In this document: positions 50,599 through 53,932 of the stretch, piece after piece
How positions within the stretch are numbered: the stretch's first letter is position 1
How the letters are laid out: the number at the start of each line of letters is the position of its first letter
NCBI GenBank assembly: GCA_025358305.1
Contig: JANYJZ010000026.1
Location: 1 to 54,919, forward strand
Origin: Ignavibacteriota bacterium
Lineage (GTDB): Bacteria > Bacteroidota > Ignavibacteria > UBA10030 > SZUA-254
Direction: 5' to 3'
DNA: 54,919 nt
The notes under the pieces: model-generated
Database searches by the model: none
What the model saw: only the letters and a program-made list of their open reading frames with translations
Told to the model about the DNA's origin: nothing
Program-made: the position numbers and the translations under genes

Positions 50599-50663
50599 GG
50601 GGTACCGCCCTTTTGGGGAGAACGCGAACGGAGGGCCGTGACGGGAGGAGACGCAGAAATAAA

Positions 50664-50765
50664 GGGGCCAAGCACGACCGTGTCACACGAACAAAATTTC
50701 CTACCGTTGCTTCCTTCCGGACCTGGCGGGGTTCGGAGATCGTTCGTTGCACGGGACTTGGCCCC
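50664..50765 (-). ncRNA. ffs: Signal recognition particle RNA, small bacterial type
   Basis: The minus strand carries the invariant SRP domain IV core AGGTCCGGAAGGAAGCA, with the GGAA tetraloop and internal loops that bind Ffh. The ends GGGGCCAAG and CTTGGCCCC are perfectly complementary (50765-50757 with 50672-50664), closing a 102-nt rod like 4.5S RNA. With Ffh it targets nascent membrane proteins. A TTTATTT stretch follows the closing helix and can act as terminator. Confidence 0.95.
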
Positions 50766-50817: not shown

Positions 50818-51186
50818 TCACATCGCGATCACCCGTTCAATGGCGGCAAGAAGCACATTGAGGTCGTACGGCTTTGTCAAATAGTCGTTTGCGCCGAGCT
50901 TCACCGATTCGATGGCCACCGACAGGTCGTCCACAGCGGTGAGCATGATCACCCGCGAGGTGAGGTTCTCCGCGCGGACGAATTTCAGCACCTCCATGCC
51001 GTTCACCCGAGGCATGCGCACGTCCAAGAGGATAATGGCGAATTTCCTGTTCTTCAAGAGGTTGATCGCGGTATCCCCGTCGTCCGCAGTCTCCACTTCG
51101 TACCCTTCGGACACGAGTTGGTTCTTCACGAGCGTGCGGAGCGCGGCCTCATCATCGACATACAGAATGGTTACCGGTGATGCCAT
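50818..51186 (-). CDS. Single-domain response regulator in the glycan operon
   Basis: A 122-residue receiver domain without output domain. D11-D12 form the acidic pocket, D55 (LLDVRMP) accepts phosphate, T83 is the switch residue and K105 (TKP) is conserved. It lies 44 bp downstream of the NfrB-like glycosyltransferase on the same strand, the last gene of that operon. I infer that it regulates the synthase or its export by contact when phosphorylated; a cognate kinase is not in the window. Confidence 0.9.
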   Translation of the reverse strand: MASPVTILYVDDEAALRTLVKNQLVSEGYEVETADDGDTAINLLKNRKFAIILLDVRMPRVNGMEVLKFVRAENLTSRVIMLTAVDDLSVAIESVKLGANDYLTKPYDLNVLLAAIERVIAM

Positions 51187-51230
51187 GCGTCAGTCTCTCC
51201 TTTGAATCGGGTTGAGGATGATGCGCGCCG

Positions 51231-52640
51231 TCATTTGTGGAGGTGCTCCGTTGACGTCGGGAACGTGTGCGGGGTCTTTTCCCACAGGAGCTCCTTGTTC
51301 TTGATCGCCGCGCGCGTGAATTGGAACAGCGCCCGTCCCGTGGCGCTGAAATTGATGACATTCGAGATCGGCAGCCGGAACATGCTGAGGAACGCCGCCC
51401 ACCAGCCGTACACCCGGCGCACGGAGATGACCCGGTGGAGGATGCGCCAGAGCATGAGCACGCTGTCGATGACGACGAGGTCCCACAGAATGGTCCCCCT
51501 CGAGACGATCGGCGGGAGCTGCTGGTACGCCGCAAAACCGTACCGAACCGCCTCGTACGCCATGAGGTACGAGATGACGATGTAGGCGAAGAAGTTGATC
51601 GTGTTCGCGATGATCGCTTTCCGGTCGCGGTAGAGGATGAAGCGGAACCGGCCGTCCCCCTTCCACCCGACGGTCTTCCAGGACTGAAGGCAGATCCCGG
51701 TGATCCAACGGCTCTTCTGGCGGATGGAGGATCTCATCGTGTGCGGGAAGTACCCTTTCGTCCCGCAGTCGATGCCAAAGGGCTTGTACGCGAACAGGAG
51801 GTTCGCCTTACCGAGCGCGAGACGGAGCGCAAGGTCGTAGTCCTCCGTCAGCGAATTCGCCCGGAAGATGTTTTTGGCGTACGACGTGCCGATGAACTCG
51901 ATGAGCCACCGGTTGAACCCCGTCCCGACCCCGGCGGACGGGACGAATCCGCTGAAGTATTGCCGGACAAGGACGTCCTTCGTGTGGTTCTCGGCGAACT
52001 CGTCGGAGTACGTCCAGTGGACGAGCTGCGTGTGACTCGTGTGGAGCGGATAGACGGGCATCTGCACCATGTCGTATTCGGGGATGAACACGTTGTGGAG
52101 CTTCAGCGACATGGGATGGATCACGTCCTCGGAATCGTGCATGAGAATGATGTCGTACCGGACGCCGGTGCGGTTCTCCCACCGGAGCATCCCCTCGTGG
52201 ATCTGGTTGAGGTTGTCGGCCTTCGTCGTGGGGCCGGGGTTCATCGAGACCACGGCATGGACGTTCGGGAACTGGCGGCTCACCTCCTCCACCTTCAAGA
52301 TGGTGTCCGGATCATTCGGATAGACGCCAACGAAGATATCGTAGTTCTTGTACTGGATGGTGCGGACGGAATTGTAGAGCATCTTGTCGATGACGTCGAA
52401 CTCCTGCCACGCAGGGATATAGATCGCGATCGGCTTCTCCGGGATCTGGTGGATCCTCTCCGGGGAATCGTACCGGAACTTGTTGAACTTCTTGCGCGCG
52501 AAGAGGTGGTGGAACCAGTAGTACATGTCGACAAACACGTCGTCGAGCCCGCTCAGAAAGAGAAAGGTCGCAACGACAAAGGTCGCGACGTAGAGGAACG
52601 CATACGATGAGCGGAAGAGCTCTATGATCCACTGTACCAT
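51231..52640 (-). CDS. NfrB-like family 2 processive glycosyltransferase
   Basis: A 469-residue inner-membrane GT2 enzyme resembling E. coli NfrB along its first two thirds: FLSGLDDVFVDMYYW at 28-42, IFVGVYPNDPDT at 102-113, GPTTKADNLN at 136-145, MHDSEDVIHPM at 167-177, SLTEDYD at 263-269 and the processive QxxRW motif as Q308-R311-W312. Helices lie at about 10-30 and in the C-terminal part (about 330-430). It ends at WEKTPHTFPT, where NfrB continues with an MshEN/GspE-N domain that binds cyclic di-GMP; that domain is missing. It would polymerise an amino-sugar-like glycan and thread it to the periplasm. Confidence 0.85.
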   Translation of the reverse strand: MVQWIIELFRSSYAFLYVATFVVATFLFLSGLDDVFVDMYYWFHHLFARKKFNKFRYDSPERIHQIPEKPIAIYIPAWQEFDVIDKMLYNSVRTIQYKNYDIFVGVYPNDPDTILKVEEVSRQFPNVHAVVSMNPGPTTKADNLNQIHEGMLRWENRTGVRYDIILMHDSEDVIHPMSLKLHNVFIPEYDMVQMPVYPLHTSHTQLVHWTYSDEFAENHTKDVLVRQYFSGFVPSAGVGTGFNRWLIEFIGTSYAKNIFRANSLTEDYDLALRLALGKANLLFAYKPFGIDCGTKGYFPHTMRSSIRQKSRWITGICLQSWKTVGWKGDGRFRFILYRDRKAIIANTINFFAYIVISYLMAYEAVRYGFAAYQQLPPIVSRGTILWDLVVIDSVLMLWRILHRVISVRRVYGWWAAFLSMFRLPISNVINFSATGRALFQFTRAAIKNKELLWEKTPHTFPTSTEHLHK

Positions 52641-52643
52641 GGC

Positions 52644-53816
52644 CTAGAACAACCTGTCAAAGACAACGAACAGCCGGACGCTATTGTATGCGGCGCCGTA
52701 GAGGAGCGCGCGCTCCTGCGTAGCGGTGGTTGAGACGTCCGAGTAGTATCCGCGGTGGTATTCGCCGATAAGATAGAGCCCCCAGTCGACGTTCGGCGTG
52801 ATGCGGACGCCGCCGCCGATCTCCACCAGGTTATTGTAGAAGAGCCCTTCGGTGTCGCCAACGAGATCGAGCCGCGCGTAGACGTCGACGGAGGTCCGGG
52901 AGACCTCGGCCGCGTGGAGCCCCGCGCGCCCTTGTGCGTAACAGATTGCGTTGCGGTACCGAGAATAGTAGCCCACCGAGGCATAGATATCCGCGAACGG
53001 CGCCATCGGAAAGGTGAGGTTGTCATGATGGGAGAACGGGGCGTAGATCCCGGCGCCGTAGACGGCGACCGCTCGGAAATCCCCCCGCGTGATCCTGCCG
53101 GCGCCCTTGTCAAGGAGGTCGAAGGCGAGCCCTTCCTGCACGTCGATCATGAGGCCTGTGAACGGCTTCACTCGGACACCGAATGCCAACAGGAACGAAT
53201 TGTCAGAGATGACCAGAGGCGCAAGTCCGACGCCCCGGGACTTGTTGTCTCCGGAAACGGACGCGATCCCGTAGAGACTCCAGCGGTGGTCGGTACTGAG
53301 ATCGTATCCGTGCTGGAAGTGACCCTGATAAAAGAGCGTCTTCCAGCGCGTATCGTAGTACGTGGCGCCGTAGAGATGCGTCCACCGCCGCGGCGGTTCG
53401 GGAATCGAGGCGAGCGAGTCGAGCCCTGCGCCAGCCTTCTCGCGGATGCCCGGCGTCGACGAAATGGCGACCTCCCGGAAGAGCGATCGGGCCTCTTCCG
53501 CCTTGCCGAGCGAGACGAGGATATAAGCGCGTTGGAGCGTCGACGTATCGGAAGGTGAGATGCGGTCGGCCTGGGTGAACTGTTCCAGCGCATCTTCCGA
53601 CTCGCCGCGGGAGAGCAGGAGATAGCCGAGCTGACGGTGGAGTAGGACGTTCTTGGGGTCTCCCGCCAAGGCCTGGCGGAAGAGCCGCGACGCTTCAGCC
53701 GGATTCGAGCCCATGAGAGCGTAGGCGCTGTCCGCGACCGACCGACCCTGGCAGAAGAGAAGCACCGAGGAAAGCGACATGAGCGCGGCGAGCACACCCA
53801 GACGCCGTATGTGCAT
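52644..53816 (-). CDS. TPR plus outer-membrane barrel protein, NfrA/PgaA-like (reduced)
   Basis: A 390-residue protein with a signal peptide (LGVLAALMSLSSVLLF). Residues about 30-135 contain two to three TPR helices (AEASRLFRQALAGDPKNVLLHRQLGYLLLSRGES). From about 150 the sequence alternates aromatic and polar residues in short strands (GATYYDTRW, ASVGYYSRYR, GLYLIGEYHRGYYS) and ends in Phe, as do outer-membrane barrels. E. coli NfrA is about 990 residues, so this is a small version. It ends 3 bp before the NfrB-like gene. I prefer ATG 53816 over 53891, which would lie at the transcription start. Confidence 0.72.
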   Translation of the reverse strand: MHIRRLGVLAALMSLSSVLLFCQGRSVADSAYALMGSNPAEASRLFRQALAGDPKNVLLHRQLGYLLLSRGESEDALEQFTQADRISPSDTSTLQRAYILVSLGKAEEARSLFREVAISSTPGIREKAGAGLDSLASIPEPPRRWTHLYGATYYDTRWKTLFYQGHFQHGYDLSTDHRWSLYGIASVSGDNKSRGVGLAPLVISDNSFLLAFGVRVKPFTGLMIDVQEGLAFDLLDKGAGRITRGDFRAVAVYGAGIYAPFSHHDNLTFPMAPFADIYASVGYYSRYRNAICYAQGRAGLHAAEVSRTSVDVYARLDLVGDTEGLFYNNLVEIGGGVRITPNVDWGLYLIGEYHRGYYSDVSTTATQERALLYGAAYNSVRLFVVFDRLF

Positions 53817-53901
53817 GGTAAGGGTCACGGTAGCAAGAAGGAACAGGTCATGAAACGGAAATACAAGGCACTTTTCGAGGGATTTGGCCACCTTTGGATA
53901 C

Positions 53902-53932
53902 CAAAAGTATGAAAATTATGCTTACCAAACAA
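53902..53932 (-). promoter_or_regulatory. Promoter of the NfrA/NfrB-like operon, TTG-N20-TACTTTTG
   Basis: Minus strand: TTG (53932-53930), 20-base spacer, TACTTTTG (53909-53902), a perfect TAnnTTTG. Leader about 80 nt. The intergenic 53817-54121 otherwise shows only this and the divergent promoter at 54066. Confidence 0.75.

Follow-up and report, generated by a model that had tools for sequence, protein, structure and literature searches.

The three genes at 50818-53816 of the window (the whole 54,919-nt stretch of DNA analysed, which is one complete contig of a 3.2 Mb genome) appear to encode a compact NfrA/NfrB-type synthase-dependent exopolysaccharide system that would be free of c-di-GMP and switched on by a phosphorylated response regulator, a reading to which we give somewhat better than even chances. 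The operon claimed in the initial annotation was confirmed in its gene content: all three genes are present and point the same way, the barrel and GT2 genes lying 3 nt apart and the GT2 and regulator genes 44 nt apart; no additional gene for a YbcH-type periplasmic subunit was found within this interval. The features of the locus are as follows:

53902..53929, minus strand: possible Bacteroidota-type promoter TTTG-N16-TACTTTTG 5' of the operon, the sole match of its kind in the window on either strand
52644..53816, minus strand: TPR and outer-membrane beta-barrel protein, 390 aa, putative glycan exporter (TPR_16/TPR_19, E 1e-8; 12-strand barrel prediction; ATG start)
53412..53738, minus strand: TPR part of the exporter, residues 27-135 (Pfam TPR matches; VIA-align Z about 17 to TPR proteins over residues 25-135)
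52647..53411, minus strand: predicted beta-barrel part of the exporter, residues 136-390, 12 predicted strands (structure prediction; Foldseek matches are assorted outer-membrane barrels)
51231..52640, minus strand: NfrB-family processive GT2 synthase, 469 aa, without MshEN domain (NCBIfam NF012033, NF011305, NF008411; 38% identity to E. coli NfrB)
52125..52139, minus strand: synthase HDSED (DxD) motif, residues 168-172, invariant in alignment A1 and aligned to NfrB D169
51840..51848, minus strand: synthase TED motif, residues 265-267, invariant in alignment A1 and aligned to NfrB D267
51705..51719, minus strand: synthase QKSRW (QxxRW) motif, residues 308-312, with Q308, R311 and W312 invariant in alignment A1; aligned to NfrB W330
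50818..51186, minus strand: receiver-only response regulator, 122 aa (Pfam Response_reg; adjoins the GT2 gene in 16/16 same-order genomes with downstream DNA)
51022..51024, minus strand: codon of the regulator Asp55, phospho-acceptor (D55, T83 and K105 invariant in 13 cassette regulators)

An alternative upstream start of the exporter gene, GTG at 53891, is possible. The candidate promoter lies about 90-113 nt upstream of the exporter ATG and is not kept in that form in relatives. The single consensus promoter proposed in the initial annotation did not hold up: the sigma-70 site agrees with the consensus at only 9 of 12 positions, which is chance level for a region expected to yield 1.6 +/- 1.3 such matches, and it was judged no better. 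A small SRP RNA gene is located at 50663-50763 on the minus strand, 54 nt 3' of the regulator gene, and an SRP RNA gene also lies behind the cassette in loci L002, L003, L004, L006, L007 and L008.

The GT2 protein belongs to the NfrB family, as had been proposed. Searches against the NfrB/PRK14716 models of NCBIfam gave E-values from 1e-122 to 6e-130; the protein exceeds the curated cut-off of NF011305 (425.9 vs 409 bits), a model of 486 positions that is too short for the MshEN domain, and scores 410.6 against a cut-off of 1170 with NF008411, the equivalog model of the c-di-GMP-activated NfrB. A BLASTP comparison with K-12 NfrB indicated 38% identity across residues 2-464, with the HDSED, TED and QKSRW motifs all kept. 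DxD, TED and QxxRW are common to all processive GT2 enzymes and would be compatible with a PgaC- or BcsA-like enzyme whose likeness to NfrB is superficial, but the matches to the NfrB/PRK14716 models, with E below 1e-120, cover the entire core, and models of PgaC or BcsA did not appear at E up to 1; the NCBIfam search already contradicts such an identity, which we regard as extremely improbable. A PDB sequence search with the GT2 revealed no real match. The synthase ends at WEKTPHTFP, a motif conserved as W(D/E)KTxHxFP and aligned with NfrB at about residue 481, and the MshEN domain of NfrB occupies residues 542-628, beyond this end, in agreement with the earlier observation that the synthase stops where that domain would begin. 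The 22 cassette-specific positions of the synthase are spread over the length of the protein and were not taken as evidence for a docking patch.

The E. coli NfrB-NfrA-YbcH system, which makes the NGR glycan serving as the phage N4 receptor (PMC8669469, PMC8669472), shares with this locus the GT2 core with all catalytic motifs, a TPR and beta-barrel partner in the same operon and a linkage to an epimerase gene (wecB), seen here in class relatives. The present operon differs in having no MshEN domain and no YbcH gene, an added receiver protein, the barrel gene in first place and an exporter of 390 vs 990 aa with a short TPR arm. A lack of MshEN is in itself nothing new, since MshEN-less NfrB homologues have already been reported in Proteobacteria; the domain is present in 1,705 of 1,841 reported NfrB homologues (PMC8669469). 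Among the MshEN-less homologues (NF011305/PRK14716), the NfrB relatives of the Comamonadaceae plasmid CP099603 and of Sphingomonas NZ_CP155751 gave no Pfam MshEN match and likewise consist of the synthase core only, with no match to a c-di-GMP domain, but no adjacent receiver gene is annotated in these two plasmid records, the two in which a regulator beside the synthase was looked for outside the class.

A c-di-GMP input to the synthase is unlikely, because neither MshEN nor PilZ was matched anywhere in the genome (100% complete by estimate) and its single GGDEF match has a degenerate motif, DFNRF. The protein carrying this match (G000:C19:24329-24793; L066, L079) is 680 aa long, with a GAF-GAF-GGDEF-like architecture in which the GAF domains were read by eye; it has orthologues across the order, whose motif is degenerate too where it was extracted, and is possibly a non-catalytic receptor. 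Some genomes of the order contain a second GGDEF gene, and eight genomes of families f14 and f16 gave no GGDEF match at all; the scarcity of c-di-GMP machinery holds equally for class relatives without the regulator.

The exporter contains three or so TPRs, followed by a barrel with 12 long predicted strands, which, modelled alone, has a pLDDT of 86.9 and a pTM of 0.80. The TPR-barrel architecture suggested earlier is supported by the TPR matches and by this prediction, but the protein is not small in its barrel, described as less than half the usual size: with about 255 residues, it is similar in length to the C-terminal barrel region of NfrA, and the part that shrank is the TPR arm of about 110 aa (NfrA has 990 aa in all). 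Foldseek and VIA searches with the full model were dominated by the TPR part, BcsC being the top Foldseek match with low TM-scores; the barrel alone matched assorted outer-membrane barrels of no single family, the best VIA match being a Bordetella autotransporter barrel (Z 12.2, rmsd 5.8 over 200 residues). The exporter resembles BcsC and PgaA in having periplasmic TPRs ahead of an outer-membrane barrel at the C-terminus and differs from them in the very short TPR part and in the 12 predicted strands; the BcsC and PgaA barrels have 16. TIGR04390, the model of the YaiO/NfrA barrel family, was silent on the exporter. Comparison with NfrA by hhalign gave 97% with the TPRs included, a value that may be TPR-driven; profile comparison with the barrels of class relatives also gave 97%. 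Because the barrel alone links to the NfrA barrel weakly (hhalign, 54%), the putative role of the protein in carrying the glycan out is drawn from its architecture and operon and not from barrel homology to NfrA. The same exporter gene precedes the GT2 gene in all same-order relatives with upstream DNA.

The regulator matches Pfam Response_reg (E 1e-30) over residues 7-117 of 122 and has no output domain, which agrees with its first description as receiver-only; D12, D55, T83 and K105 are invariant in the 13 aligned cassette regulators, and D11 is nearly so. A receiver-only gene lies directly behind the synthase gene in all 16 same-order genomes with a synthase and readable downstream DNA, a count that leaves aside two f3 contigs ending too early for downstream reading. 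The order barrel-GT2-regulator is kept in ten genomes of f1, four of f51, one of f4 and one of f2 (loci L002-L007, which probably come from genomes also carrying G-handles, were counted once). Since other genomes of the order show the three genes in the same arrangement, it is more than chance, and the regulator genuinely belongs to the system, kept with the pair across the order. Of the refuting conditions named in the initial annotation, neither the one on the alignment of the synthase nor the one on the conservation of the regulator holds. In f1 and f51, the synthase and the cassette-type regulator occur together in 14 genomes and are both absent from five (G255, G579, G597, G600 and G573), these 19 genomes being related and not 19 independent events. 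Cassette regulators scored 158-207 bits against their own profile, the lowest being that of G612, which was outside the alignment; other receivers of the window's genome reached about 151 bits at most, and those of f57, a family with no synthase match, up to 163. Adjacency is a stronger argument than these scores because the profile was built mostly from the cassette regulators themselves. The regulator tree contains three label changes, only one of which is forced by the starred branches, consistent with a single origin of the cassette regulators.

In the tree of synthase cores, the proteins of the order form one supported clade, sister to the f14 and f16 synthases. These class relatives have neither MshEN nor the regulator; hence, MshEN loss did not require regulator gain, and the enzyme family can work without the regulator. 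The simplest reading is that an MshEN-less synthase was present in the class ancestor and that the regulator joined later in this order, with loss elsewhere as another possibility. The initial annotation supposed that control had moved to the regulator; this wording was too strong, given that f14 and f16 lack both alike.

In the f16 and f14 loci that were read, the gene after the synthase usually encodes a UDP-GlcNAc 2-epimerase, confirmed for three of them (PF02350, E 1e-62 to 1e-67). The window's genome contains two strong PF02350 genes unlinked to the cassette; these genes (G000:C2:22940-23965 and G000:C35:10503-11528) are near-equal, with about 401 bits each, and both lie near a similar flippase-like membrane protein, in an apparent duplicated cluster. 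A ManNAc polymer has been argued for NfrB (PMC8669469, PMC8669472), and, judging by that work (PMC8669472) and by the epimerase linkage in relatives, ManNAc is probably the substrate here as well, a suggestion weakened by G533, a synthase-bearing genome (96% complete) in which a PF02350 match is absent at E 1e-60.

In six f14 genomes, the NfrB-type synthase is split into two ORFs (L050:5995-8881, L051:5995-8876, L053:5995-9258, L054:3568-6714, L056:5323-8714 and L057:5986-9343), and its occurrence in six genomes makes a sequencing error unlikely. The first ORF comprises the TM and DxD half and has a SPOR-like domain at its end (in L057, PF05036 with E 2e-8). The second ORF starts with a long N-terminal extension and continues with the TED/QxxRW/TM half; the extension is similar to the transposase domain DUF772 (PF05598), with E 5e-5 in L057:7451-9343, narrowly passing the cut-off, and E 1e-3 in L056:5323-7176, below the cut-off. 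The f14 locus L055 has a single ORF, in which about 35 extra residues are inserted where the others are broken. The resemblance to DUF772 suggests that the f14 synthase gene may have been interrupted by an insertion element that was then retained.

In the mechanism favoured here, the inner-membrane GT2 would build a glycan polymer from a nucleotide sugar, probably UDP-ManNAc, and extrude it, and the TPR-barrel protein would take the glycan across the outer membrane. The synthase would work without c-di-GMP; a histidine kinase encoded elsewhere would phosphorylate the regulator on Asp55, and the phosphorylated regulator would bind the synthase on its cytoplasmic side and turn it on post-translationally, like EpsW~P acting on EpsZ. 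In Myxococcus xanthus, the phosphorylated single-domain regulator EpsW activates EpsZ, an enzyme without a structural element of its relatives (PMC12802240). The two cases are alike in coupling a single-domain regulator to a polysaccharide enzyme that misses a structural element of its relatives, and post-translational activation by phosphorylation is the logic proposed here; they differ in that EpsZ, a phosphoglycosyl transferase, carries out the initiating step of a Wzx/Wzy pathway, whereas the partner here would be a processive GT2 synthase, and in that the present regulator is encoded beside its presumed enzyme (PMC12802240, PMC4671073). The conservation of the regulator and the EpsW/EpsZ precedent (PMC12802240) make an action of the regulator on the synthase plausible, but adjacency and co-inheritance do not amount to physical contact. 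The more specific proposal, in which the phosphorylated receiver would control a processive GT2 synthase directly, as an allosteric switch, and the order would possess a phosphorelay-gated, c-di-GMP-free NfrB branch, is tentative, and we place it a little short of even.

Perhaps the polysaccharide system is the same and the receiver, merely encoded in the operon, makes no contact with the synthase, being a phosphorelay intermediate or a phosphate sink for expression, motility or another surface process. Single-domain receivers often serve as relay parts, the genome contains 56 receiver-domain matches, and the sampled flanks show no evident kinase or other target of the regulator, all of which suits such a role; the strict adjacency and co-occurrence with the synthase, and not with a kinase, in 16/16 genomes speak against it, and we consider it unlikely, if the most serious of the competing explanations. 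A constitutive system, or one controlled by substrate supply only, in which the receiver is kept as a neighbour through regional conservation between the synthase gene and the SRP RNA and rng genes, is improbable. It would fit the f1 loci, where the SRP RNA follows the cassette (L002-L004, L006-L008) and conservation extends to rng and the genes after it, but in f51 the synthase keeps its regulator although the downstream neighbours differ and neither L040 nor L041 gave an SRP RNA; f1 and f51 genomes without the synthase are also without the cassette-type regulator.

Synthase-dependent glycans, including cellulose, PNAG and NGR, are known mostly as products of c-di-GMP signalling. If the system switched by the phosphorylated regulator is real, this conserved branch, with a response regulator attached and hardly any c-di-GMP machinery, would represent the same enzyme rewired to another signal, and, if the switch is direct, the EpsW/EpsZ principle would be extended from initiating phosphoglycosyl transferases to synthase-dependent pathways. 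The synthase-regulator pair would also lend itself to a simple activation test with two proteins. NfrAB-type systems, for which most reports concern Proteobacteria and few concern Gram-positives (PMC8669469), would extend to an Ignavibacteria-related class.
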